Source: a virus. Taken from it: DNA of 37,288 nt. The notes under the pieces were generated by a model. The model saw only the letters and a program-made list of their open reading frames with translations, was not told the origin of the DNA and ran no database searches. The translations under genes were made by a program, and so were the position numbers. Positions within the stretch are counted from its first letter, which is position 1. The number at the start of each line of letters is the position of its first letter. Positions 2,881 to 37,288 of this stretch are shown here, in pieces. The stretch lies in IMG/VR virus record IMGVR_UViG_3300012037_000009, positions 1 through 37,288 of that record. One strand, written 5' to 3'.

Positions 2881-5800
2881 TTATTGTTGTAAAAAGTAAT
2901 TTAATGCTACTGGTGAACCACTAATTCCACCTGTATAATTCACTTTCTGTAATATATTTATCTGATCGCCTGTTGTTGTTGTTATTTCCTGTCCGCTAAT
3001 TAATATTGAACCAGCTGTAATACTGTTAACATTAAGTTCGCCAGCACCACCGCCTATTTGACTAGCAATATAAGTTTTAATAGCCTTTTGTGTTGGAACA
3101 ATATTGTCACTGTTAGCAGTAAATGTTCCGTCTACACTAAATTCAGTAATAGTTGCTCCTGTACCACCTAATTCAACTGCACCTAGTGACAGTTCGTTTA
3201 GACCACTAATATTAAATGCATCAGCATTTAGTGTAGCAACACCAGTAGATTGTTCAACGTTAAACAATCCACCAACTCTAAAGTTACCGTCTTGGTCGGT
3301 GGTTGTGTAGAATATACGGCCGCCTCCGCCGACTACTGTTTCTTTTGTTGCATCTACTGGATTAACAGGAATTCCTGGATAATTAGTATCAGCAAAGTTA
3401 CCTGTGCCAATATCCAAGAAATCATGTCCTGTTAGACGTACTTGTGAATATCTAATGCGCAATTCAATAGTGCTATTATGCTCAACTGCATCTGTAATAC
3501 TAATTTCTGGACTTATTTGTAATTGCGCCGAATATGGTCCAGCGCCTACTACGTCTCGTGTATTTACTAATTTAAAGTATTGTCCAGGAATTTCATCAAA
3601 TTCAATATTTGATCCTACTTTTGGTATGCTACTTAAATTACTTACCCTAACTAATGTTCCGGGCTGATACAAATCAGCAAAACCGTCTCCAGTTAGTTCT
3701 GCACTAGCTGTAACAAATCCTGTTCCTCGAGTAGTCCAAGTCGGCTGTGCCAATACACCGTCGCCTATTCTAACCTCATGCGGAACATCAACAGTATTAT
3801 TAGGATCTACTAACGTCATTGTAGGGGCACTATTATATCCAGTGCCCGGATCGTATATTGTAATTAATAGAATTTGTCCATCAGTAACCTGCGCTCTTCC
3901 TTTAGCAGTGTCAGCATACAATCCTGATACAGGAGCAGTAAATATTACTCTAGGCTCAATACTATAATTTGTAGTGTCGTTTAGTGTAGCTTCAATTGCT
4001 GTTCCGGGAACAATGTGATCCCATCCTGCACTATCATCGCTAAACTTTTTAACTGTCGCAATTTTAGTGCCATTATTGTAAGTGTCAATATATGCATACT
4101 GACCTGCGCCGCGACCAGTAACTATATAGATAGCCATTCCTACATATTGGCTACTTAATCGCTGATCTGTATTTGACAGAGTAATTTGTGTAGTTGTGCC
4201 GCCTTGAGCAACATTTTCAGAACTGATATATCCTGTGCCGCCTTTGTTATCTGCAGGGTTAGTTAATCTAACTTCGTATACGCCGCCGTTAACTACATTA
4301 GTTGAAGCAATAGCTGCGCCGAACCCTTCACCGGTAACTGTCCACTGTGTAGCGTCGCCAATAGTAGCAATATCAAATGTTAAATCGGCTGCGCCGCCGC
4401 TGCCTAGTAAACTATCTGCAATTGTAATAGTATCAGCTACTAGATGTCCACTGCCGCCCTTGTTAATAATCACAGTTGTAGATCCAGATTCGTCAACAAT
4501 GATATCAAATTCTTGTCCGATGCCGCTGCCTGTTGAAGAGCCAACTATGCCGTAATATGTTCCCTGTGTTCTGTTACTATCAGTCGCACTTTGATTTTCA
4601 ATAGTAAGTAGCGCATCAGTTGCCGCAGTGTAGTTTACTCCAGCATTAGTATATTCAAACGTTAAAATTTCATTACCGTCTGTAAACACTCGATTAACAA
4701 TTGCATCAAAGAATTGGTTGTTCACTGTTCCTGTAATCGGTATTTCTGTTACGTCAACTCCTTCTGCAACTGTACCAAACGTACCATATGATGAGTTACC
4801 ATTAGTAGCACGTATCTTGCCGCCGTTCTCTGATAGATAACCAATATGTCCATAGTATGAGAATACACTTACAAGTTCAGCTCTGCCTAAGTTAGTTACC
4901 CAAAATCCAATTCCGTCACTAACTAGCTGTGTAAAATCGTTTGCAACAATTGAGTCATTGCCGCCGTCGTGCAGGTCGCCATCAACCTTACATCCAACAC
5001 AGCCTGTGCCAAATGTAGTTACATTTTGTACATATGGAGATTTATTAATAATCCATGCTGCAATGTGTGCTGGTCCCCAGCCTGGGTCAAGACTTACAAA
5101 TGCGCCAGCACTTGGACGCTTTGTTCCGTATATATTATCAATTCCTAGTGTTCCTGTTAATCCTGCAACAGTACAGTTTCTCAATCCTGTGCCGTTGCGC
5201 ACATAGAACATATCTTCTTGTAAAGAACCTCCTACTGCATTTACATAATAACGGCCTGCTAGTAGTGATTTATAATTACCAGTGTAAATTAAGTCATGCT
5301 TGATTGCATCAATATAAGCATTAACATCTCTAGAAGATGCTGCTTCATTGTAATTATATGCAGGGTAAGTGTCGGCAATATAAGCTGCAACTTCTGCTAC
5401 TAAGAATGCTCTGTTTGCTTCAATTGCCTCAACTGCATATGTATAGTCAGTTGTAGTATTAGGAGTGTTTGTTCCGTATGTTACAGGAACTGTTGAGTCT
5501 CCGCTTGCTCCGTTAACACCCCAGTCGATGTAATCGTATATTTGTTGTACTAGTTCAGTCGCAAATGTTCCTGCGCCTACACTGCCTGCCGGAGCAGTTG
5601 TAACTTGACTTAGAGCATTTCCTGTTGTTTTAGTAACACTACCATTAGTAACAATGTTGCTCATAATAGTTTGCAATCTTGATAGTGCATCTAAACTATA
5701 CGGAGTATCTGCACTGTCAACTATTACACCAGCTGGTGTAATACGTGTTGAACGTAATTCGTCGCCTACTACTGCGGTGTTTTCAGGAACAACGATTGGC

Positions 5801-8160
5801 AATACTTCTGCAAACTCACCTGTTTTAACAAAGATAGTGCTTTGTGGCTTTCTTTCTACTGGAATACTTGTGGTATTGCCTGCTGTAATTGCCGCAGTAA
5901 TTATATCTGTTAATGTTTCTAACGTCGATTGGGCATCTGCTTCTTCTACAAATACAACATTGGTATATTGATTTAAGCTTCCGCGGACTGTTGCAGGCGC
6001 AAGATTAGATAATATTGCGTCTGCAAGTATTTTAATATAATTTAATCCGTCTGCTGTTTCGGTTTGATTACCAGCTGTATATGTATCGCCTGCTAAATTA
6101 AAGTAGGTTAGTGTCTGTAAGCGAGAACGCTCGTTGCCGCCATGTGATAAATCCCACACAATTGCATCTACAACAGCACCTGCATCTTCTCTAAATGCAG
6201 TTTTATCATATACTCCTACAAGTGCAGGATATGTTGCATCAATGTACTCAACAACTTCGTCTTGTATGAAACTTCTATTTCTTTCTAAAAGATTCTTAGC
6301 ATTATAACGTATTGCGCCGGCCAGCACCTGTTCTGCTGCGTAACGTATAGTTTTAAATGGACGATCTAGTGTCACACCATAACTAGGTGCAGGATTATCA
6401 ACGCCGGTTGCGCCTTCAACATAAAATACATTATTAATAGCACCGAAACTAGTCCATTCTGGAGCATTACCGGCATTGTTAACTTTAAGAACTTGTCCAG
6501 GTTGACCAATTGGTAATCTAGTTGGTCCAGCGCCACCGTAGTAAACAATGTCTCCTTCGGTTGTCAAGTTACCTGATTCTGCACCAGCAACTAACAAGTT
6601 CCATTCGCTACCGTCTACGTCTTGATCTGGTCTATTTTGATCTATAGTTTCATCCGAAGTATGTGCAAGTATACAAATATACGAGTTTACGCCGTATTGT
6701 ACAGAGTCGCCAGCATCGTAAAATGTAGCATCTGTCCATGTGCCTTTCCATTCAATGCCTTCGTTAAGTAACTGCCAGTAAGTTATATTAGGTGGGCGGA
6801 ATCCTTCATGCTTCTCAATACACAAATATGTATAGCCGCCCAAACGAATTACATCACCTTCAATATATTCTCTATTTGAACTGTCATCTTCGTAGTCGCC
6901 TAGAAATCTAAATCCTGTAGTAAATAAATCCCAACTGTCCGGATTATCGCTTGGTTTTAGAGCAGTATTATTTGTTATAGATACATAACTATAGCCGCCA
7001 TATGTTACAAAGTCGCCTGGTTGATATAAGGTGCTTGCATTCCAACTATCTTCAAATTCCAATCCTTCGACAAACTGTGCCCAGTTAGATTCATCTGCTG
7101 CAAGGCTTGTTGTACTTGTATGATAAGTTGTACAAATCCAAACGCCGCCACCATACTTAACAACATCATTAATTTTATATCTAGTTTCTACTGCCCAGTC
7201 AGATTTATATTCAATACCTTTGTGTAAGTAATCCCATTTACTTTGATCTGCTTCTAAACCTAGTGTTGCTGTTACTGCACTTGTATGTCCTACATTGGCA
7301 ATATATAGTGTGCCGCCGAATCGTACAATGTCATTTTTTCTATACCTAGTGTTTGTTGTCCAAACGTCTGTCCAATAAAACCCTTCTGAGAAAATATTCC
7401 ATTTAACATTTGTAGTTGCAATTAAAATTATTGGATCAACTGCGCCGCCGCCGCCGAGGTCTGCGTCAGCAATAGTAAATGTATCACCATTCGAGTATCC
7501 AGTACCTGCGCTAGCAATTGTTGCAGTTATTTCGCCAGTGGCGTCAACTACAACATTTACAGTTAATCCTGTGCCAGTACCGCCCACTGTTGCAACACTG
7601 CTGTATGTACCCTGTGTACGATTGCTGTCTACTACAGTTTGTGTTGTATCAAGGCTTAATGCCGCTCCAGTTATTTCTAATTCTAATCCGTCTGCTAAAG
7701 TTGTAGCGCTAACATGTTCTTGTGTACAAATGTAAACTGTGCCGTTATATTTTGCAATATCATTAATTTTGTAACGTGTATTAATCAACCAGTCGGCTTT
7801 ATAATCGAACCCTTCTGCAAATAAATCCCATTTAGATTGGTCGTTTTCAAGTCCAAGTAAGTTATCAGGTGTACTAGTGTGTGCTTCGTTTGCAATATAT
7901 AAATAGCCGCCATACTTTACAATATCGTTTACTTTATAATAAGTCTCAGCAGTCCAGTCGCTTTTCCATTCAACACCGTCAGAAATCTTATTCCAATAAA
8001 CATCTTGTGTATCTGTAAAAAAAGTCGGAGCAGCATGGCCTGAGATACAAACATATGTGTTTCCGCCATTGCGAACAATATCGTCTTTGTAGTAGACTGT
8101 AGAAGACGACCAATCGCCTTTCCATATAAATCTAATTCTACCTAATTTAAACTCTGCCAT
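2881..8160 (-). CDS. Giant tail-fibre protein with eight W/Y repeats and beta-helix
   Basis: This is a 1759-residue protein. Residues 1 to about 530 hold eight repeats of about 50-60 residues, each built as W-x-x-x-T-x-Y-x-x-x-D-(I/V)-V-x-(Y/F)-G-G-x-x-Y-x-C-x-x-x-H. These resemble the Trp/Tyr-rich carbohydrate-binding modules of chitinase type. From about residue 575 (FYVEGATGVDNP, then PFKTIRYA) a parallel beta-helix is likely. It is interrupted by two copies of a helical segment, about residues 620-685 and 900-970 (ERNRSFIQDEVVEYI-type and EANRAFLVAEVAAYI-type). The C-terminal part carries RLTGHDFLDIGTGN and TDQDGNFRVGGLF (near residue 1620), both shared with the next protein upstream. It should be a structural tail or side fibre that binds surface glycans. 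A GGAG ribosome site precedes the ATG. Confidence 0.8.
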   Translation of the reverse strand: MAEFKLGRIRFIWKGDWSSSTVYYKDDIVRNGGNTYVCISGHAAPTFFTDTQDVYWNKISDGVEWKSDWTAETYYKVNDIVKYGGYLYIANEAHTSTPDNLLGLENDQSKWDLFAEGFDYKADWLINTRYKINDIAKYNGTVYICTQEHVSATTLADGLELEITGAALSLDTTQTVVDSNRTQGTYSSVATVGGTGTGLTVNVVVDATGEITATIASAGTGYSNGDTFTIADADLGGGGAVDPIILIATTNVKWNIFSEGFYWTDVWTTNTRYRKNDIVRFGGTLYIANVGHTSAVTATLGLEADQSKWDYLHKGIEYKSDWAVETRYKINDVVKYGGGVWICTTYHTSTTSLAADESNWAQFVEGLEFEDSWNASTLYQPGDFVTYGGYSYVSITNNTALKPSDNPDSWDLFTTGFRFLGDYEDDSSNREYIEGDVIRLGGYTYLCIEKHEGFRPPNITYWQLLNEGIEWKGTWTDATFYDAGDSVQYGVNSYICILAHTSDETIDQNRPDQDVDGSEWNLLVAGAESGNLTTEGDIVYYGGAGPTRLPIGQPGQVLKVNNAGNAPEWTSFGAINNVFYVEGATGVDNPAPSYGVTLDRPFKTIRYAAEQVLAGAIRYNAKNLLERNRSFIQDEVVEYIDATYPALVGVYDKTAFREDAGAVVDAIVWDLSHGGNERSRLQTLTYFNLAGDTYTAGNQTETADGLNYIKILADAILSNLAPATVRGSLNQYTNVVFVEEADAQSTLETLTDIITAAITAGNTTSIPVERKPQSTIFVKTGEFAEVLPIVVPENTAVVGDELRSTRITPAGVIVDSADTPYSLDALSRLQTIMSNIVTNGSVTKTTGNALSQVTTAPAGSVGAGTFATELVQQIYDYIDWGVNGASGDSTVPVTYGTNTPNTTTDYTYAVEAIEANRAFLVAEVAAYIADTYPAYNYNEAASSRDVNAYIDAIKHDLIYTGNYKSLLAGRYYVNAVGGSLQEDMFYVRNGTGLRNCTVAGLTGTLGIDNIYGTKRPSAGAFVSLDPGWGPAHIAAWIINKSPYVQNVTTFGTGCVGCKVDGDLHDGGNDSIVANDFTQLVSDGIGFWVTNLGRAELVSVFSYYGHIGYLSENGGKIRATNGNSSYGTFGTVAEGVDVTEIPITGTVNNQFFDAIVNRVFTDGNEILTFEYTNAGVNYTAATDALLTIENQSATDSNRTQGTYYGIVGSSTGSGIGQEFDIIVDESGSTTVIINKGGSGHLVADTITIADSLLGSGGAADLTFDIATIGDATQWTVTGEGFGAAIASTNVVNGGVYEVRLTNPADNKGGTGYISSENVAQGGTTTQITLSNTDQRLSSQYVGMAIYIVTGRGAGQYAYIDTYNNGTKIATVKKFSDDSAGWDHIVPGTAIEATLNDTTNYSIEPRVIFTAPVSGLYADTAKGRAQVTDGQILLITIYDPGTGYNSAPTMTLVDPNNTVDVPHEVRIGDGVLAQPTWTTRGTGFVTASAELTGDGFADLYQPGTLVRVSNLSSIPKVGSNIEFDEIPGQYFKLVNTRDVVGAGPYSAQLQISPEISITDAVEHNSTIELRIRYSQVRLTGHDFLDIGTGNFADTNYPGIPVNPVDATKETVVGGGGRIFYTTTDQDGNFRVGGLFNVEQSTGVATLNADAFNISGLNELSLGAVELGGTGATITEFSVDGTFTANSDNIVPTQKAIKTYIASQIGGGAGELNVNSITAGSILISGQEITTTTGDQINILQKVNYTGGISGSPVALNYFLQQ

Positions 8161-8195: not shown

Positions 8196-11100
8196 TTATA
8201 TTCCAAATAATTGTAGCGCCAAATAGTCGCCATCAATTCCTTTGGTGTGATTTACTAGTACAGGAATATTTATTTGTAATCCTGATGTTGTTGTAATAGT
8301 TGACCCTGATATTCTAACTTGTCCAGCAATTAATGTATTTGTTGTTGCATCAGCGCCACCGCTACTGATTCTACTTTCTAAGTATTTTATAATAGCTGCT
8401 TGCGTAGGAACAATGTTATTTGAATTAGCAACAAAAACACCATCTTTACTAAATTCTCTAACAACAACTGCACTGCCACCAACTTGAATTCCGCCTAAAC
8501 TTAATTCTGACAGACCATCTAATTCAAACAAATCAGCGTTAATTGTAACTGTACCAGTTGCTTGTTCAACCGCAAATAGTTCACCAACTCTAAAGTTACC
8601 GTCTTGGTCTGTGCTTGTATAGAACACACGACCGCCTCCAGCGTCAACTGTTTCATTAAACGGTTGCCTTGCATTTTCAGCATCTTCGCCTTCAAGATAT
8701 AACTGCGGATATCTTGTACTGTTAGTATTACCAGTACCGATATCTAAGAAATCGTGTCCTGTTAGACGTACTTGACTATATTGTTCACGAATAATTATAG
8801 TTTCTTCGTGATCAGGTGAATTTTGATTAGTTATTGTTGGTGAAATTTGCACAACTAGATTAAAATTTGGGGCTGATCCTGACTGCGAAACTACCTTTGT
8901 TAATCTGTATGTAACATCGTCAATTCCGTTAATAACAACGTTGGCTCCGGGTCCTGGAACCAAGGAAACATTCTTAAGATTTAATATTTTTCCAGTTTGA
9001 TATATATCAGCAAATCCATTTCCTGATATAGTTGTTGTTGCTGTAATATATCCTTGGCCTCTATTATTAAAAACAGGTTGTGGCAATACGCCGTCTGCTA
9101 TTCTTGTTTCATAACTGACTCCTACAGTTGCTTCTGGATCGTATATTGTTACTATCGGGTCAGTTGAATAATTACTTCCTACATTATAAACAATAAATCC
9201 TTGTATTCTGCTTGAACTTACAGTAACTCTAGCAAATGCCGTAGCGCCGAGTTCTACTGTATTCCACGTTGCTCCATTAGCTACTGCAATCCAGTTTTTA
9301 GTTAGAGGCATATATTCTAAATTGCCCCAGACTCTAATATCGTCTAATGCATAAGTTGTACTATCTGCGTTAAATGTTTTCCATACTTTGCCGTCTTGTG
9401 ATTTTGCAAGTTTGTTTGAATTGCCTGTAGCAACAAATACTCCAGCGCCATATGACAAAGTATTAAATGTATCAACATCTTCTATGACGTTTTCATACCA
9501 CGTAATACCATCATGACTGTATGCTACTAAATTACTTGCGCCTATTGCAACAAACTTTCCGTCGCCGTAAACTACTGATGTCCAAGTACTTGCAGTTAGT
9601 GCTGATACTGTAGTAGTCCAATTTGCTCCGTTGTCTGTTGAGTACGCAACATTACCAGTGTCATTAACAATAATAAATTTACCTGTACCATAAGCAGGCA
9701 ATCCTGCAATACCAGTTGCGCTAGAATATGAACTTCCATGATTTGATGAATAACTTACGTCACCGTTATCCATTACTAGAACAACATTTCCTGCTCCGTC
9801 TGAAGCAACACCAGTATAGTTATTTGCCGAAGCACTAGACTCTACAAAATTGTTTAATGCTCCTGACTGTGATGTGTAATAATATGTGCTATCACCAGTA
9901 ATTATAAATTCTTGTCCTGTATATACTGCACCAGTTGCTGATGTAGCGGCTCTAAGTGAAGAAGAATTGTTAATCCAGTTTGCGCCTGCATCGTTACTGT
10001 ATGCATGTGATTCTCCTAAATTAGACGGAACAACTAATATTTTTTGTGCCTTGTCTGAAGCAGTAAATTTATAAGTATTTGCATCTAATCCGGTATTGAT
10101 AATTGATGTATTAAATATCGGATCTGCAACTATAACAGCTGGCTCAATTCTATATCTAGTAGTTCCGTCTAGTGTTGATTCAATAGGGTAACCTGGATAG
10201 ATATGGTCCCACCCTACTGCACCGTCAGATTCTCTACTAATAATTGCAATTTTTGAAATGTCATTATATTCAGTGATATATCCGTATTGACCAACTCCTT
10301 TGCCGCTATCAATAAACACCCTCATACCTATATATTTTTCACTAGTTCCTGTGCCGTCCGTTGCTGACAATGTTATAGTGTCTGTAGTACCTGATTGTGC
10401 ATTATTCAAAAGAAACTGGTAATTTAATCCACCTGGTGTGCTCGAGTCAGATGGATCTGTTAATCTAATCTGACTAACTGCACTGTTTCTAAATTCGTTG
10501 TATACTGCATCTGCATTAATACCCGGTCCATTAATGCTAATAGTTGCACTAGTATATGATTGGCCGGCATGACTGTAACCAACTCCTACTATTTGATTAC
10601 CATTTGTGTGAACTACTGCCGACTGTGCTTCTAATGTACGATTATCTAGTTGTGCCGATATTGGAATCTCAGTTGAACTTACTCCTTCTGCAACTGACCC
10701 ATAGGTTCCGTAAGAATTGTTACCATTGGTAGCACGCAAGATTCCGCCGTTTTCTGCAAGGTATCCGATATGACAAAAATACGTAAATACCGATACTAGT
10801 TCAGATCGGCCATTATTCAATGCCCAATATCCAATACCGTCACTTAGTACTTGTGTAAAATCGTTTGCTACAATTGATCTGTTTCCACCATTATGTAGTG
10901 ATCCGTCAATCTTCATTCCGATACATCCTGTACCAAATGTTGTTACATTTTGTACATAACACGATTTATTAGTAATCCATACACTTTCGTCAGTAGGTCC
11001 TGTACCTGGATCAAGACTTACAAATGCTCCAGCCGTTGGGCGTCTTGTTAAGTATTGGTTTGGCGCTTGTAATGTCCCGAATAATCCTTGCAAGGTCATA

Positions 11101-12920
11101 TTTCTAATGCCGCTACCGTTGTTTACGTAGAACATATTCTTAGTTTCTTCTCCCGAAGCAGGAGTAATAACTGTACTTCTAAGTTCGTCGCCAACCAGCG
11201 CACAATTTCTTGGAACTCTAATAGGCAACTGTTCTTCGTATATTCCTGTTTTAATAAACAGGGTAGTATTTACAGTATCGGTACTGACATTAGCTGCAAT
11301 ATATTCACAGGCATATTTTACTGTACGGAATGGTGCGTTAACTGTTAATCCAGCGCCGCTGACATCTGTGCCAGATGTACTGACATAGAATGCATTTGCT
11401 ACTGTTTCAAAATTTTGCCAAGTAATCTGTCCAGCAATAGACTTTAATAAGTTACCAGGGTCGCCTATAGCAAATCTTATAGTTTCAACATCATCACGTG
11501 TTCTTAAATCACCAAGTGTTGTTAAAACATTACTCGCAGTACCTTGTAGCAATACGTCCCAGTAATTTTGGTCAGATTGCAATACATCTAAATCAGGACG
11601 ACTATCACTAGCTGTTGATAAATGTCTGTCTATGCATATATATGCAGTGCCTGCATAAGTTACAACATCACCCAGACTATATTCAATATTATCTTCCCAA
11701 CTATTTTTCCATTTGCGACCAGTAACTAACACTTGCCAGATTAACGTGTTAGAATCTGGTTTTGTATTTGTATTATCACTAATTGCTATATAAAGATAAC
11801 CTTGATCTCTAATGACATTACCAGTTAGGTAATTTGTTTCAGAGTTCCAATCGCCTAGATGTTGATATCCTGCAACTAATAATTCCCAGTCGCCAGTATC
11901 TTGTACCAATCCATTAACACTGGGAACACTATTAGTATTGTTAGTCAGTGCAGTGTAACCATAACCACCATATACTACAATATCACCCTTATTATATTCG
12001 ACATCTGAAGTCCATATTCTTTCGTACTCAAGTCCTGGTACATAGATATTCCAATTAGATTCATCAACTCTTAGACTATTAGTAGATGTATGTCCTTGAA
12101 TAGCTCTCCATAGAGAGCCTCCATATTTAACAACGTCATATTTTTTATAACGAGTTTCGATAGTCCAGTCGCCTTTGTATTCAATACCTTCTAAAAATAT
12201 TTCCCATCTGTCTTGATTAAATTCTAAACCTAGTTCAAGAGATGCGGCGCTTACGTGACCTGTTACACATCGATAAGTGATTGCGCCATATTTTACAATA
12301 TCATCTACTGTGTATCTAGTACTAACAGTCCAATCAGCTCTCCAGTTATCTGAACGAGTAACAATAGCCCAGCTATCTTGATTAAATTCTAGTCCTAGAA
12401 AAAACGAGTTGGCTGCTACGTGTTTTTCTACACAGATATAAGTTATACCGTTATAAATTACTACATCACCTAAATTATAATACTGTGTTATAGCAGGAGT
12501 ATCTTCGTCAACAGCATCTACAGAAGGAGTCCAAGTGTTTAGCCAATTATACGTAGTAGCAACAATTGTCCATTTTTCGATATCGTCTATAGGTCCTTGT
12601 GAAACTATTGACGTAGACTGATGTTCTGTTATACATTGATACAAATATCCATTGTATTTTATAATGTCGCCTCGATTATATTGTGTGATTGAAGTCCAAT
12701 CTGCTCGCCATTGATTGCCGTCAAACATTAATTCCCAACGAGTATTAGGTGCAGCAAGATTTAAATCAGGATATATTGTTGAGCTACTAGATGAGTGCCC
12801 AATTAAACATACATATGTTTTTCCTTGATAACGAACAATATCATCCTTAACATAATTAGTTGATAATATCCAGTCGCCTTTCCATCTAAATCTAATTCTG
12901 TCTAAATTAAAATCTGCCAT
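8196..12920 (-). CDS. Giant tail-fibre protein with Asp-box repeat insertion
   Basis: This 1574-residue protein is paralogous to the 1759-residue fibre downstream: the same start (MADFNLDRIRFRWKGDW), eight W/Y-rich repeats (residues 1 to about 460), a beta-helix from about 510 (FYVSTSGTDVSGAG, PFRTVKYACEYI), SLHNGGNRSIVANDFTQ, and a C-terminal RLTGHDFLDIGTGN plus TDQDGNFRVGELF (near residue 1437). Unlike its paralogue it lacks the duplicated helical segment. Between about residues 937 and 1220 it has a series of Asp-box-like motifs (YSNDAGANW, YSTDNGANW, YSHDGITWY, KSQDGKVWK), typical of sialidase-type beta-propellers. Catalytic sialidase residues cannot be identified, so binding is more likely than cleavage. 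An AGAGAG ribosome site is present. Confidence 0.8.
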   Translation of the reverse strand: MADFNLDRIRFRWKGDWILSTNYVKDDIVRYQGKTYVCLIGHSSSSSTIYPDLNLAAPNTRWELMFDGNQWRADWTSITQYNRGDIIKYNGYLYQCITEHQSTSIVSQGPIDDIEKWTIVATTYNWLNTWTPSVDAVDEDTPAITQYYNLGDVVIYNGITYICVEKHVAANSFFLGLEFNQDSWAIVTRSDNWRADWTVSTRYTVDDIVKYGAITYRCVTGHVSAASLELGLEFNQDRWEIFLEGIEYKGDWTIETRYKKYDVVKYGGSLWRAIQGHTSTNSLRVDESNWNIYVPGLEYERIWTSDVEYNKGDIVVYGGYGYTALTNNTNSVPSVNGLVQDTGDWELLVAGYQHLGDWNSETNYLTGNVIRDQGYLYIAISDNTNTKPDSNTLIWQVLVTGRKWKNSWEDNIEYSLGDVVTYAGTAYICIDRHLSTASDSRPDLDVLQSDQNYWDVLLQGTASNVLTTLGDLRTRDDVETIRFAIGDPGNLLKSIAGQITWQNFETVANAFYVSTSGTDVSGAGLTVNAPFRTVKYACEYIAANVSTDTVNTTLFIKTGIYEEQLPIRVPRNCALVGDELRSTVITPASGEETKNMFYVNNGSGIRNMTLQGLFGTLQAPNQYLTRRPTAGAFVSLDPGTGPTDESVWITNKSCYVQNVTTFGTGCIGMKIDGSLHNGGNRSIVANDFTQVLSDGIGYWALNNGRSELVSVFTYFCHIGYLAENGGILRATNGNNSYGTYGSVAEGVSSTEIPISAQLDNRTLEAQSAVVHTNGNQIVGVGYSHAGQSYTSATISINGPGINADAVYNEFRNSAVSQIRLTDPSDSSTPGGLNYQFLLNNAQSGTTDTITLSATDGTGTSEKYIGMRVFIDSGKGVGQYGYITEYNDISKIAIISRESDGAVGWDHIYPGYPIESTLDGTTRYRIEPAVIVADPIFNTSIINTGLDANTYKFTASDKAQKILVVPSNLGESHAYSNDAGANWINNSSSLRAATSATGAVYTGQEFIITGDSTYYYTSQSGALNNFVESSASANNYTGVASDGAGNVVLVMDNGDVSYSSNHGSSYSSATGIAGLPAYGTGKFIIVNDTGNVAYSTDNGANWTTTVSALTASTWTSVVYGDGKFVAIGASNLVAYSHDGITWYENVIEDVDTFNTLSYGAGVFVATGNSNKLAKSQDGKVWKTFNADSTTYALDDIRVWGNLEYMPLTKNWIAVANGATWNTVELGATAFARVTVSSSRIQGFIVYNVGSNYSTDPIVTIYDPEATVGVSYETRIADGVLPQPVFNNRGQGYITATTTISGNGFADIYQTGKILNLKNVSLVPGPGANVVINGIDDVTYRLTKVVSQSGSAPNFNLVVQISPTITNQNSPDHEETIIIREQYSQVRLTGHDFLDIGTGNTNSTRYPQLYLEGEDAENARQPFNETVDAGGGRVFYTSTDQDGNFRVGELFAVEQATGTVTINADLFELDGLSELSLGGIQVGGSAVVVREFSKDGVFVANSNNIVPTQAAIIKYLESRISSGGADATTNTLIAGQVRISGSTITTTSGLQINIPVLVNHTKGIDGDYLALQLFGI

Positions 12921-27107: not shown

Positions 27108-27115
27108 TATTTATA
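27108..27115 (-). promoter_or_regulatory. T4-type late promoter (TATAAATA)
   Basis: A perfect TATAAATA overlaps the gp20 stop codon (GTA-TAA-ATA). It stands only five bases before the ATG at 27102, so initiation from it would give a leaderless or nearly leaderless mRNA. Chance occurrence at a stop codon cannot be excluded. Confidence 0.45.
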
Positions 27116-30100
27116 CCGTTTGGTCAGTTGTTGGGGCTGCGCCCAGATCTTGACCAGTTGCTGTTTCGGGGCCTGCGCCTTCTCCGCCGTCTACTGGAGG
27201 TAATTCTTCACCAGTTTCATCTTCAAGGCCGCCTAGGTCGGAACCAATGCCAGCGGCGCTGATGCCAGCATCTCTCATTTCAGCACTAGCATCACCTGGT
27301 AGCGGCTCTAATACATCATCGTTTTCTTCTTTCCATAGGCGTTCATTCTCTGCAATTTCTTCTTCAGTCATACCAAGGAAGCGTTTCATAGCAAAACGAT
27401 TTGACACATAAGGTATTGCACTCATCTGTGTATAAGTTGGAACACGAGCATTGTCGATTTCGCTTTGACGATATGCTGCAAAGTTTTGCGGCGGTTGGAA
27501 TTTGAGATCAAACATTGACGTATCAATGTTGATTCCTTTTTCCAACATATATCTTTTAAATTCTGTGTCGAATTCTTCAACTACTAGATTTTGCAAACGT
27601 TCACAATAGGTATTGAAGCGAAGTTCTTGTATGTAGGCTGTGCCCACACGTCCATCATTATATTGTGCAGATGAATCATCTGCTCCAGTTGGAAGGTACG
27701 AACTTGGGATACGTAATCCGCGTACCAGCTTATTAGTGAAGTATCGTAGATCATCAATCTCTCCTAGGTTAGTACCGCCTGGCAGTGTTTCAACTTTTGA
27801 TCCACGACCTTCTGCTGTCTGCGGGAAGAAGTAGTCTTCATTTATTGAATTTTTAACAAAGATACCACTTTCAATAGCAAACGTGTGATAGTTGTGCCAT
27901 TTTTCAGTGCCGTCTATAGTAATAGTTCCTGTATCTCGATTAGACACTACTTCTATTTTTACTACTTTGTGGTTAAACTGATCGATTTCTTTTACAAACT
28001 GTTTCCAGTTAGTGTATCCGTTTTTCTTAAGAAGTCCATTTAGTTTACTATAACCAAATCGCGTAAAGTCAATCTTACACTGAGCGTTCTTATAATCAAG
28101 AGCAACTGAATTTTCTTTCTTTAACAGATCTAATAACTCTTTGTTATTGTCACAAAGATTAATTACAGTGTTCTTATTTGTTGACTGAGTCTTAACTATC
28201 TCCACTACTATCTGTAACATTTCAAATGTCAAATGTAACGATTGATTTTTTATTTTAACTCTAGATTCCAAGTTTTTTACCACTTGTTGCATCGCAGCTA
28301 GATTACTATTAAGGTGGTCACTTCTAGATTTGCCAGCGTTCTTTTTATAACTGACCATAGTCGCAGGATCATTCTGTCTCATCCACACTGCTCTCTGTTG
28401 TGCTGACCTAATATTGTAAAGAGCTGATTGTCTTTCTACAATAGTCATATTCTTCCAATGTGTTTTTAACGTATTAGAAATTTTTCCCGTAACTAACTGG
28501 AATTCTTCTTCTGATAAATTAGACCAGTAATCTGATTTATTTGCAGCATGGTACTGTATGTGATCAGCTTTATTCATATATTGAAGATTACGTGGATCGT
28601 TATTAAAGCGATTATAATCTCGATGATGTATTACTGCTTTAGACTTTCCTGCATTTTGTTCAAGGTATGTAAATTCCTGATGTTTGCTCAAGTTTCTAAA
28701 AAACTCGCCTACAACTCGATGAGTCCACTGCCATTCCTTCTTGCTATGATCCCAAACTTGCTCATAGTCATTAGATTTAGACGATATCTTTTTGTTTCTT
28801 TTATTAAAAGATATTAGACTATCAGTTTCGACAATGTCCTTGGCCTCTACCATACCTTTTCCAAATACTGGTATCTTGTGGTCTGGAGTACAAACTAAAG
28901 TTTCGCCATTATCAAATGTTAATTGAATAGTTTGTGTATTTCTACGAGTAATACCAGCCCAGTTAATTACCCCTGGCGCTATTTTGCCAGTCACAGGATC
29001 ACAACTGTATGCCCAGTTTTCTTTTCCTTGCTTAAACTCTGCAATTAACTCAGTTAGTGCTAATGTTCTTCCATCAAGTAGAGGAATCCTTGTAGATAAA
29101 TCCAAACAGAGAGGATTATAGCTTGAGTCAATAACATTCGCACCGCCGCCGCTGGAACTTGGAATACGTCTTTGATGGATTTCAGTTTTAACACGTTCAA
29201 CAAATGCCATAGCAAGGTGACTGGGCATGTTGCCCACGTCAACGTAGAACACTCTGCGTTCAGGAGCACGTTGAACACGGTAGATAATAATCGCATCTTC
29301 TAGTAATTCTTTTTGTTTGTACACTTTGAAAATAGTTTCTAACAAACTGTTGCCAAAAGGAAAGTTGTTGTCTAAGCCTTCACTTAGACTTAGATGAATC
29401 ACATGTTTAGCATCAATTGCCCATTCGTTCTGATCAGTTTGGAAACGACTGCCGCTAGTTGACTGTTGCGGTTGTCCTACCATACCTCTAGCATTGCCCA
29501 CAGGCTGATACTGTGTTCCAGCAGTGCCGCCGATGATGCCGCCTGTGGCTTGGAATGGAGTAGTTGCTACACCTTCTACAAAGTTGAGATTAATATTTTT
29601 AATCATATACTGTTCAGGCAGCTTGCCTTCTGATTCGTTAACAATGATACGAGTAACGTTGGCAGGGTCCACATGGAACCAACGTTTAGTTTCAGGGTCG
29701 CGTATAAAGAATTGGTCGCCGAACTTGAAAATATTTCTCAGTATTTTAAATATCTTTGTTTCAAACTGTTGTAGCTTGCACCATTGTTGTAGATACTTTT
29801 GAATAATAGTAACTTCACTATTGGTTGCTTTTTGTTTAAAGTCAATAATAAAAGGCGTGCCGTTTTGCGCATTTTTCTGCGTAGTAAATTCCGCAAGAAT
29901 ATCAAGAGCAGCATTTACTTCTGAATCGAGATCCATGGTATTGTACTGACCATAGCGTTCAACTCTGTTTGGAGAACCTATGTAAACATCAGGCAAATAA
30001 CTTGAATAATTAGAACGTGCAGGGCCTGCTGGGCCGCCACCGTTTCTAAGATTAGTAAACGGTGAATAACTTCCGTTTGGGTTATTTGCTGTTGGTACTG

Positions 30101-30125
30101 GGGCGAAATGCTTCTTCCAGCTCAT
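27111..30125 (-). CDS. 20: Portal protein gp20 interrupted by an intein
   Basis: The reading frame is 1004 residues long, about 420 more than usual for marine gp20. Residues 1-339 and 760-1004 together form a complete T4-type portal protein of 584 residues: MDLDSEVNAALDILAEFTTQ (64-83), PFGNSLLETIFKVYKQKELL (256-275), RAPERRVFYVDVGNMP (286-301), then EDYFFPQTAEGRGS (763-776), VETLPGGTNLGEIDDLRYF (778-796), and NRFAMKRFLGMTEEEIAENE (909-928). The portal forms the dodecameric DNA gate and initiates head assembly. The intein occupies residues 340-759 and must splice out to give a functional portal. It is followed by an acidic, Gly/Pro-rich C-terminus. An AGGAG site precedes the ATG. Confidence 0.93.
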   Translation of the reverse strand: MSWKKHFAPVPTANNPNGSYSPFTNLRNGGGPAGPARSNYSSYLPDVYIGSPNRVERYGQYNTMDLDSEVNAALDILAEFTTQKNAQNGTPFIIDFKQKATNSEVTIIQKYLQQWCKLQQFETKIFKILRNIFKFGDQFFIRDPETKRWFHVDPANVTRIIVNESEGKLPEQYMIKNINLNFVEGVATTPFQATGGIIGGTAGTQYQPVGNARGMVGQPQQSTSGSRFQTDQNEWAIDAKHVIHLSLSEGLDNNFPFGNSLLETIFKVYKQKELLEDAIIIYRVQRAPERRVFYVDVGNMPSHLAMAFVERVKTEIHQRRIPSSSGGGANVIDSSYNPLCLDLSTRIPLLDGRTLALTELIAEFKQGKENWAYSCDPVTGKIAPGVINWAGITRRNTQTIQLTFDNGETLVCTPDHKIPVFGKGMVEAKDIVETDSLISFNKRNKKISSKSNDYEQVWDHSKKEWQWTHRVVGEFFRNLSKHQEFTYLEQNAGKSKAVIHHRDYNRFNNDPRNLQYMNKADHIQYHAANKSDYWSNLSEEEFQLVTGKISNTLKTHWKNMTIVERQSALYNIRSAQQRAVWMRQNDPATMVSYKKNAGKSRSDHLNSNLAAMQQVVKNLESRVKIKNQSLHLTFEMLQIVVEIVKTQSTNKNTVINLCDNNKELLDLLKKENSVALDYKNAQCKIDFTRFGYSKLNGLLKKNGYTNWKQFVKEIDQFNHKVVKIEVVSNRDTGTITIDGTEKWHNYHTFAIESGIFVKNSINEDYFFPQTAEGRGSKVETLPGGTNLGEIDDLRYFTNKLVRGLRIPSSYLPTGADDSSAQYNDGRVGTAYIQELRFNTYCERLQNLVVEEFDTEFKRYMLEKGINIDTSMFDLKFQPPQNFAAYRQSEIDNARVPTYTQMSAIPYVSNRFAMKRFLGMTEEEIAENERLWKEENDDVLEPLPGDASAEMRDAGISAAGIGSDLGGLEDETGEELPPVDGGEGAGPETATGQDLGAAPTTDQTV
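27849..29108 (-). mobile_element. Intein with HNH homing-endonuclease domain in gp20
   Basis: The 420-residue intein is inserted in frame between NPL and SINEDYFFP of the portal. Splicing block A is Cys1 with LDLSTRIPLLDGRTLALTELI-like sequence; block B is LVCTPDHKIP with the T-x-x-H motif (portal residues 413-416). The C-terminal blocks read GTITIDG, WHNYHTFAIE and SGIFVKN, ending in Asn420 followed by Ser+1 of the host protein. Its central part carries an HNH nuclease domain, VIHHRDYNRFNNDPRNLQYM followed by HIQYHA (residues 498-527 of the frame), then a helical DNA-binding-like region rich in Lys/Asn. The penultimate residue is Lys where most inteins have His. It is a probable selfish homing element in an essential gene. 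Confidence 0.92.
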
Positions 30126-35242: not shown

Positions 35243-35668
35243 TTATTTTTGGTTTTTAAGAGATTCTATAAGAGCCTTGGATCCGCCTACACGAACGTTA
35301 ATAATGCCGTTGTAATATTCGTCTGTCTCTAGTACACGCCTGTCAAATTGTTCTTTGGCCTCTAAATAACTTAGTTCAGATCTAGTTGTACACCAAAAGA
35401 GTACTTCTCTAGTAAAATTCTCTGCACCTAAAGCTGCAACGTCTGCCTTGAGATTGTCAGAACTACTCCAGTAGTCACGCCAATCACTTTCTACAGTGTA
35501 TTTTCTACGATTCTTTTTGCCTTTGAGTGGTGGTTTAGATTTTTTAAACTGAGCAAGTTTTTTGCCTATGTATTTTTTGTTGTTGGTGACATTTGTTATC
35601 AAGTAAACAAAGCCTATTGAGCCTTCTGGTATTTCTTCTATAACCGTTCCTTGATAAGTCCAATACAT
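35243..35668 (-). CDS. GIY-YIG-like nuclease domain protein
   Basis: This 141-residue protein contains GFVYLITNVTNNKKYIGKK (residues 18-36), a GIY-YIG type core in which GFVY and KYIG take the two strand positions. It is followed by a basic stretch (KKSKPPLKGKKNRRKY), ESDWRDYWSS, and ENFTREVLFWCTTRSELSYL then EAKEQFD. Proteins with this arrangement are widespread as stand-alone genes in T4-like phages. They may be nucleases, homing or not; whether this one cuts DNA is untested. The catalytic Glu of the family is likely within the SYLEAKEQFD segment. It follows the small unknown gene at 35684 and stops right before the hairpin-rich region. Confidence 0.65.
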   Translation of the reverse strand: MYWTYQGTVIEEIPEGSIGFVYLITNVTNNKKYIGKKLAQFKKSKPPLKGKKNRRKYTVESDWRDYWSSSDNLKADVAALGAENFTREVLFWCTTRSELSYLEAKEQFDRRVLETDEYYNGIINVRVGGSKALIESLKNQK

Positions 35669-35924: not shown

Positions 35925-36686
35925 TTACTGTATCACATCAATGTCGTTAGCGTATGATTTACAATTTTGTCCGTGCCATCTTTTGTAATTCGTAAGCATT
36001 GTAGTTTTTCCACAAAACTCGCAAGTTTTCTGTCCGTTTATTCGTGCTAATTTTTTTCTCTCTATAGTTTCTTGTGATTGCTTTCTGCCTTTAAGTTTTT
36101 CGCCTATTCTTTTCATTAGCTCAGGATCTCTAGATTTTCCTAACTTATTTTGTCTAATTTTTTCTTTTGTAGAATCACTTCTCTTTTTTCCAGTAATTTC
36201 ATTCTTACGCTTTTCTCGCATAACAGAAGCATATTCGTCTCCAAAGATTTCTTCATATGACTTTCCTTTTTTTGCTTCTGACATTTTTTTCTTAGTTTCT
36301 TCGCTGTGATTTTTTCCAAAAAAAGGATTGTTTTCTTTGCTCATTCTTTTAGATTGCGCAATTGAATGTTTGATTCTTGCCTCTTCATAGTCTTTTTCTG
36401 TAAATGTGTACTCTCTTTGCTGCGAACGACTTTGTTTATTCATCATTCTCCATAAAGCGCTCCACATCTTCTGATTGTCGACTCCTGTTGTAAATTTAAC
36501 TAATAACTTGTGACACAAAAAATGATCTTCAGCACTAAGGCACACAACGTTGTCTCTTTTATTAGATCCATTCAGTGATTTAGGAATGATATGATGTCTT
36601 TCACAATATTGAGATTTTGGATCTAGTACTTTGTTATTTTTTATAATATCATAATATTCTTTTAAATAATTATTTTGCGTAAACAT
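35925..36686 (-). CDS. Free-standing HNH homing endonuclease with NUMOD3 repeats
   Basis: This 253-residue protein carries an N-terminal HNH nuclease fold: CERHHIIPKSLNGSNKRDNV, then VCLSAEDHFLCHKLL (residues about 28-63). It continues with three NUMOD3-type DNA-binding repeats (NPFFGKNHSEETKKKMSEAK, KKRSDSTKEKIRQNKLGK, KLKGRKQSQETIERKKLA) and a C-terminal zinc-finger-like CEFCG...HGQNC. This matches the Mob/Hef-type homing endonucleases of T4-like phages, which cut intronless alleles and spread with neighbouring DNA. It lies just after the gp46 stop codon with its own TATAAATA and an AAAGGAG site, and is strongly Lys-rich. Confidence 0.85.
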   Translation of the reverse strand: MFTQNNYLKEYYDIIKNNKVLDPKSQYCERHHIIPKSLNGSNKRDNVVCLSAEDHFLCHKLLVKFTTGVDNQKMWSALWRMMNKQSRSQQREYTFTEKDYEEARIKHSIAQSKRMSKENNPFFGKNHSEETKKKMSEAKKGKSYEEIFGDEYASVMREKRKNEITGKKRSDSTKEKIRQNKLGKSRDPELMKRIGEKLKGRKQSQETIERKKLARINGQKTCEFCGKTTMLTNYKRWHGQNCKSYANDIDVIQ

Positions 36687-36711: not shown

Positions 36712-36719
36712 TATTTATA
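36712..36719 (-). promoter_or_regulatory. T4-type late promoter (TATAAATA)
   Basis: A perfect TATAAATA (CGTATAAATACTAAG) overlaps the gp46 stop codon on the minus strand, 26 bases before the HNH ATG. The homing endonuclease therefore seems to be expressed as a late gene. Confidence 0.65.
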
Positions 36720-37288
36720 CGATACTAGTAATATCTAAATCTGATTCGTATGAGGTGAAGCCATTCTCTTTAATAACTTTGAGCACATTGTTTACTCTGC
36801 CGATCAATTCGTCCTTGTGACTGATCAAATAGATATTTTTGTTTCTTTCACGTCCCATCTTCTTGAGAACCGCAAGACTATTCTCAACGCCAGCAGTGTC
36901 CATGCCCGAATCAATAAGTTCGTCGATGAACAATAGGTTGATGCCTTGATAGAGACTTTCCCAAACGTCACGGAAAGCAAAACTTAGACCGAGTATTAGT
37001 CTGTTTCGTTCACCTCTACTCAAGTTATCAAAGTCAAGGTCTTGACCCAGCTGTGTGATCTCAACGTTCAAATCGTTTTGAAATCGAACTTGGTGAGGCA
37101 GTCCTAGTTTGTCAAGGTAATATGTGAGTCTGTTGTTAAGATACATCAAGTTTTGATCAATAATCTTCTTGCGTATGAAGCTGTCTTTGTTGGTTAGCAG
37201 CTTCAATAAGAAGTCCTGATGGTCTCTAAAGCTGGTGAGATCATTTACCATGTCCCAACGTATTTCCTGTATAGCAGTGGTTTTGAGA
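36715..37288 (-). CDS. 46: Recombination endonuclease subunit gp46, C-terminal part
   Basis: At least 191 residues of the C-terminal end of an SbcC/Rad50-like ATPase are present; the frame continues open to the window edge, so the start is outside and the first visible Met (37251) is internal. Motifs are the ABC signature LSRGERNR (FDNLSRGERNRLILGLSFAF), Walker B LLFIDELID, a D-loop region SGMDTAGVE and an H-loop LISH. T4 gp46 is 560 residues and forms, with gp47, the nuclease complex for recombination-dependent replication and host DNA degradation. It is followed immediately by the HNH gene. Confidence 0.9.
   Translation of the reverse strand, partial: LKTTAIQEIRWDMVNDLTSFRDHQDFLLKLLTNKDSFIRKKIIDQNLMYLNNRLTYYLDKLGLPHQVRFQNDLNVEITQLGQDLDFDNLSRGERNRLILGLSFAFRDVWESLYQGINLLFIDELIDSGMDTAGVENSLAVLKKMGRERNKNIYLISHKDELIGRVNNVLKVIKENGFTSYESDLDITSIV

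Follow-up and report, generated by a model that had tools for sequence, protein, structure and literature searches.

A predicted self-excising HNH intein in the portal gene gp20 of an uncultured jumbo-type myophage, within a cluster of neighboring intein sites

We conclude, with a probability of roughly 0.94, that the T4-type portal gene gp20 of an uncultured jumbo-type myophage carries a class 1 HNH intein in its clip region, which would excise itself from the protein and home to uninterrupted sites. The window, meaning the whole stretch of DNA analyzed, is a 37,288-base IMG/VR fragment from an uncultured phage, without a cultured isolate. Both splicing and DNA cutting by the window intein are predicted from its sequence.

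The interrupted gp20 is a single open frame of 1004 aa without an internal stop (27111-30125, minus strand, as for all parts of the gene below). The Pfam family Portal_T4 matches it in two separate stretches (E 1.8e-100), a PHROG search matched it to phrog_213 (portal), and by HMMER alignment the portal matches the T4 gp20 structure 3ja7 (E 2.5e-33). T4-type portal homology covers residues 1-339 and 760-1004, extending across both exteins and placing the protein among the T4-type gp20 portals. Frame translation, the Portal_T4 match, and comparison with relatives delimit an N-extein of 339 aa ending in ...SSYNPL (29109-30125) and a C-extein of 245 aa plus stop that begins SINEDYFFP (27111-27848), whose first codon, Ser+1 (27846-27848), would provide the second nucleophile.

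Between the exteins lies an insert of exactly 1260 nt, or 420 aa (CLDL...IFVKN, 27849-29108), with Cys directly after NPL and ...VKN directly before SINEDYFFP. A sequence-only reading of the window had proposed a 420-residue insert at precisely this point, running from Cys to an Asn before Ser; its boundaries proved right to the base, and Cys1, N420, and Ser+1 are all present. The splicing blocks and inner HNH motif that it described were also recovered. In the search of intein families that it had suggested, the NCBIfam model TIGR01445 (intein_Nterm) matched above its cut-off (30.4 vs. 24.5 bits), and Pfam Intein_splicing (PF14890) matched below cut-off. The N-terminal splicing region (residues 1-105, 28794-29108) contains Cys1 in block A and the TxxH motif of block B as CTPDH (residues 73-77), while the C-terminal region (residues 379-420, 27849-27974) contains block F as HNYHTF and block G as IFVKN^S. 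Across an alignment of 23 relatives C1, T74, H77, H408, and N420 are invariant, and Cys1 is found in 23/23 of these as well as in 46/46 inteins at the window's own insertion site (site b below). The TxxH of block B and the invariant C-terminal N420 with Ser at +1 place the intein in class 1.

Family matches and alignment locate the HNH core at residues 161-187 (28548-28628, HHRDYNRFNNDPRNLQYMNKADHIQYH), where the motif HHxD...NNxPxNL...HxxxH is present; Pfam HNH_3 matches below cut-off (E 6e-4), and three PHROG HNH families match the insert (phrog_7545, E 3e-7). The mostly helical region that follows in the model (residues 200-377, 27978-28511) has no Pfam family match, is shortened or lost in some nuclease-deleted relatives, and is probably the target-recognition (DNA-binding) part. 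An AlphaFold model of the intein (mean pLDDT 78, above 85 in the N-terminal splicing part) is helical in the middle and beta-rich at both ends. The 50 best Foldseek matches in the PDB are inteins, intein-like proteins, and hedgehog Hint domains, with PI-PfuI, RecA, NrdJ-1, DnaE, and other inteins at the top, and the modeled intein accordingly has a predicted Hint fold. This intein insertion pattern is not due to chance. NCBIfam RtcB intein models matched the intein part only, far under cut-off, which points to a shared intein family and not to RtcB, an identity that we rejected.

The penultimate residue of the intein is Lys and not the usual His. Without a penultimate His, Asn cyclization can be slower. 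Lys occupies this position in 45/46 distinct site-b inteins, so it is a conserved trait of the site-b family and not decay of a single copy; the inteins at neighboring site c have penultimate His in 10/10. A passage in PMC4031507, citing Chen 2000, states that some inteins lacking this His still splice, and because such exceptions exist the penultimate His is not defining for class 1. This Lys, the wide spread at site b, and the occupied neighboring sites go beyond what the sequence-only reading contained.

Searching with the C-extein returned at least 595 portal relatives, from which we took the best 80 (C-extein identity 85-95%). Nearly all of these 80 are uninterrupted, running through ...SSYNPLSINEDYFFP..., and one of them (L048) is occupied. 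The empty site YNPLSINEDYFF is present in 68 full-length close relatives, which proves that the insert is an insertion; this alignment, also suggested by the earlier reading as a check, excludes the outcome that would have refuted it, an ordinary portal domain shared by other phages. Cultured jumbo phages, including Phosso, Atu_ph07, PA5oct, GAP32, CBB, 121Q, and others, match the joined portal as one piece. Exact junction patterns with a common 3' half identified 66 occupied and at least 120 empty sites in IMG/VR.

Comparisons among occupied and empty loci indicate recent transfer of the intein together with a tract of flanking DNA. The inteins of the window and L005 are identical at 1259/1260 nt, in portals whose exteins are 71.9% and 74.0% identical, and identity extends beyond the intein by 30 nt on the 5' side and 14 nt on the 3' side before the sequences diverge; a near-identical intein in such strongly diverged portals requires recent transfer. 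Between the window and L007, dS reaches 2.99 in the C-extein but stays at 0.05-0.13 across the four regions of the intein. The occupied L007 and the empty L078 have wider loci that are ~98.5-98.8% identical, with 0 mismatches in 750 nt of the 3' extein, 1 mismatch in 872 nt of the distal 5' extein, and 12/28 nt mismatched immediately upstream of the intein. Judged from the alignment, this pattern is what allele replacement at the site leaves behind. The replacement may have gone in either direction: the flank of L007 is similar to that of L083, an empty relative, so L078 may have lost the intein by recombination instead of L007 having gained it. Among the fetched loci, a CTC codon precedes the site in 27/39 occupied vs. 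2/123 empty alleles, counts inflated by kin and duplicate loci, and this skew fits co-conversion of the flank.

We propose that the whole 1004-aa frame would be translated first and that the Hint domain would then excise itself through an N-S shift at Cys1, transesterification at Ser+1, and cyclization of Asn420, joining NPL to SIN and giving a normal 584-residue portal with the junction peptide SSYNPLSINEDYFF. The HNH core and helical region would cut the portal site in co-infecting phages that have it uninterrupted, and during repair the intein would be copied along with a few tens of bp of flank.

Related inteins occupy four adjacent gp20 sites, a-d, within ~37 residues (T4 ~319-354). Site a (GGG^S-NVIDS) was seen in L030, site b (NPL^S) in the window and most others, site c (PQT^S-EGRG) in the L121-L136 group, and site d (PGG^S-NLGE) in L029, L130, and L186, while L218 and L200 carry variants of sites c and d that are displaced by roughly one codon. 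We placed the sites by T4 homology, setting aside an AlphaFold model of the empty portal (pLDDT 37), and HMMER alignment maps a near residues 319-321 of T4 gp20, b to M328^S329, c to R338^R339, and d to A353^D354. In T4 gp20, R338 and K342 lie in the DNA-facing inner clip loop and 350-359 in the channel loop (PMC4493910), so all four sites fall in the clip/channel-loop part. The earlier view that the insertion sits in a conserved part of the protein was also borne out.

Several portals contain more than one of these inteins. The L029 portal (L029 3-2480, IMGVR 3300035034_000143) has three inteins, at b, c, and d, all of which lack an intact HNH; the exteins between them are of 11 residues (SVNEDYFFPQT) and 14 residues (SEGRGSKVETLPGG). 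The same c and d pair is present in L120/L138 (3300012031_000015). Sites c and d are both occupied in L130, b and d in L186, b and c in L134, L195, L196, and L218, and b together with the shifted d in L200. Empty relatives have Ser at +1 of site b too. At sites a, c, and d, intein alleles have Ser+1 and empty relatives mostly have other residues (mostly Ala at c, Thr or Gln at d); at c and d the nucleophile codon was thus apparently brought by the intein, and at all three sites the intein seems to carry its own. In a tree of splicing domains, one side comprises the inteins of site b (46 rows, moderate support of 69/87), and those of c and d cluster. The simplest reading, which is not proved, would be a single intein family radiating into neighboring targets. 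We lean toward one HNH intein lineage that was repeatedly retargeted within ~110 bp of gp20, at four main sites and their variants about one codon away, such that assembling the conserved clip/channel-loop part would take two or three splicing events, which link exteins of 11 and 14 residues. This cluster of adjacent, co-occurring inteins is the part that a specialist would find surprising.

Two loci in this set have features of their own. The site-a intein of L030 (4001-5467, GGG^SNVIDS) is 489 aa long, and its helical region seemingly holds two copies of a module ending in GYxSW, suggesting modular target recognition. The c and d portal of L132 (2358-5444) has a frame broken inside the site-d intein, possibly through sequencing error or a decayed nuclease.

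Nuclease-deleted forms with intact splicing ends were found in L031/L032 (315 aa), at site b of L134 (147 aa), and at site d of L029 (208 aa), and the site-c intein of L029 (152 aa), apart from its nuclease deletion, is almost the same as the complete intein of L121 (385 aa). Full, empty, and eroded states thus occur as the homing-cycle model predicts. We also considered a split intein in the L121-L136 group, a suspicion that arose because every tblastn match to the L029 mini-intein stopped at about its residue 115, and rejected it because these are full-length inteins with intact nuclease.

The nuclease-deleted relatives indicate that decay is common, and the window intein may still splice with an inactive endonuclease, its present copy being inherited vertically and its spread lying in the past. 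The HNH dN/dS of 0.42 between the window and L007, the highest of the four regions and based on few changes, would agree with this. We nevertheless consider it unlikely, since the HNH motif of the window is intact, a near-identical intein resides in strongly diverged portals, and HNH dN/dS between the window and L009 is 0.011. Across all four intein regions the latter pair gives 0.01-0.13, with ratios left out for pairs past L009, most of which are saturated in dS, and these sequences show purifying selection on the intein. It is more improbable still that splicing is conditional and that the intein brakes portal assembly or packaging, being kept for a regulatory benefit. Such a role could accommodate the location of the sites at motor- and DNA-contacting portal parts (by T4 mapping and PMC4493910), the conserved penultimate Lys, and the wide spread of the site-b intein, but a selfish element that gives no benefit would account for the patchy distribution, the nuclease decay, and the existence of an empty phage that is nearly identical. 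That the insert is an ordinary portal domain retained in the virion is scarcely credible: the frame is open throughout and DNA alone forbids nothing, but the Cys1/TxxH/Asn/Ser+1 set with its Hint fold and the close relatives lacking the insert argue against it, and a ring of 12 subunits could not plausibly accommodate 420 unspliced residues in its clip region. We therefore favor a self-excising intein that homes.

A profile search returned at least 561 confirmed relatives of the intein, of which the best 80, as read in frame, all belong to gp20; site b accounts for nearly all of them, and several lie on contigs of 140-300 kb. Among 50,697 records, the window portal intein was found in no cultured phage; the matches were in LR756508, which is uncultured, and, in genes other than the portal, in Bacillus phage SP-15 and Yersinia phage TG1. 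Patterns drawn from the window alone, which miss distant relatives, gave 7 matches in 84,980 prokaryote species genomes, none of them a relative. The portal of the uncultured huge phage LR756508.1 (484 kb; L035 2027-6187) has three inteins, at YGK^S, KQL^T, and EGK^S, sites unlike those of the window, and one is an HNH relative of the window intein. The ORF upstream of it (from ~base 164 of L035) looks intein-bearing too. In SP-15, the hypothetical protein SP15_022 (L036 4001-5131) contains an HNH intein just before a Walker-A-like GGIGLGKST and is possibly the N-terminal part of a terminase; nearby SP15_026 is annotated as terminase large subunit. No published intein in a T4-type gp20 was found in the literature searched, which mostly excluded subscription journals.

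Other genes of the window, all on the minus strand, include a free-standing homing endonuclease of the HNH type that carries NUMOD3 motifs (35925-36686), immediately downstream of where an SbcC/gp46-like gene (36715-37287) ends, and a SegE-like GIY-YIG protein (35243-35668; Pfam SegE_GIY-YIG, 6.5e-34). A protein of 1759 aa (2881-8160) contains seven carbohydrate-binding repeats of the CBM_5_12 type and likely acts in the tail or host recognition; the adjacent upstream gene (8196-12920) appears to resemble it. Two further proteins are rich in cysteine and glycine (40-783, with a Gly_rich_2 match, and 1449-2192).

These observations extend the known intein targets to T4-type gp20, which encodes an essential structural portal and commonly serves as a phage marker gene. 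They also make natural transfer visible, through a flank tract that can be read off the sequence and through a near-isogenic pair of loci, one occupied and one empty. The site cluster offers a natural system for studying target change in homing nucleases and bears on the splicing of adjacent inteins across very short exteins. Inserts of up to ~490 residues, singly or several together, lie in the most conserved segment of gp20 and can mislead surveys and annotations of the gene.

Among solved structures, the best sequence match is NrdJ-1 (PDB 8ubs, E 3e-4), which shares the Hint fold and differs in being a split-intein fusion from an RNR gene, without nuclease. Phage MIJ3, a related jumbo phage with a portal ~51% identical to the window's, also has an HNH-associated intein, but this is split and lies in PolB (PMC6892783), and the MIJ3 portal is uninterrupted. 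The TerL inteins of Rak2/K64-1 (PMC5259590) likewise occupy a packaging gene in the same broad jumbo-phage group and are of the LAGLIDADG type, whereas the window has an HNH intein in gp20. Mycobacteriophage inteins, found in TerL, portal (PORT, one portal class), and others (PMC5050341), resemble the window's in combining phage DNA-packaging genes with homing nucleases; PORT is a mycobacteriophage portal, unlike the T4-type gp20 of a jumbo-type myophage. The haloarchaeal MCM helicase has four close intein sites and multi-intein alleles, with active inteins that each cut their own site (PMC10643990). It is like gp20 in having four close sites in one gene and more than one intein per allele; MCM is a cellular helicase, whereas gp20 is a phage structural portal with HNH inteins, up to three per gene, and exteins of 11-14 residues between them.
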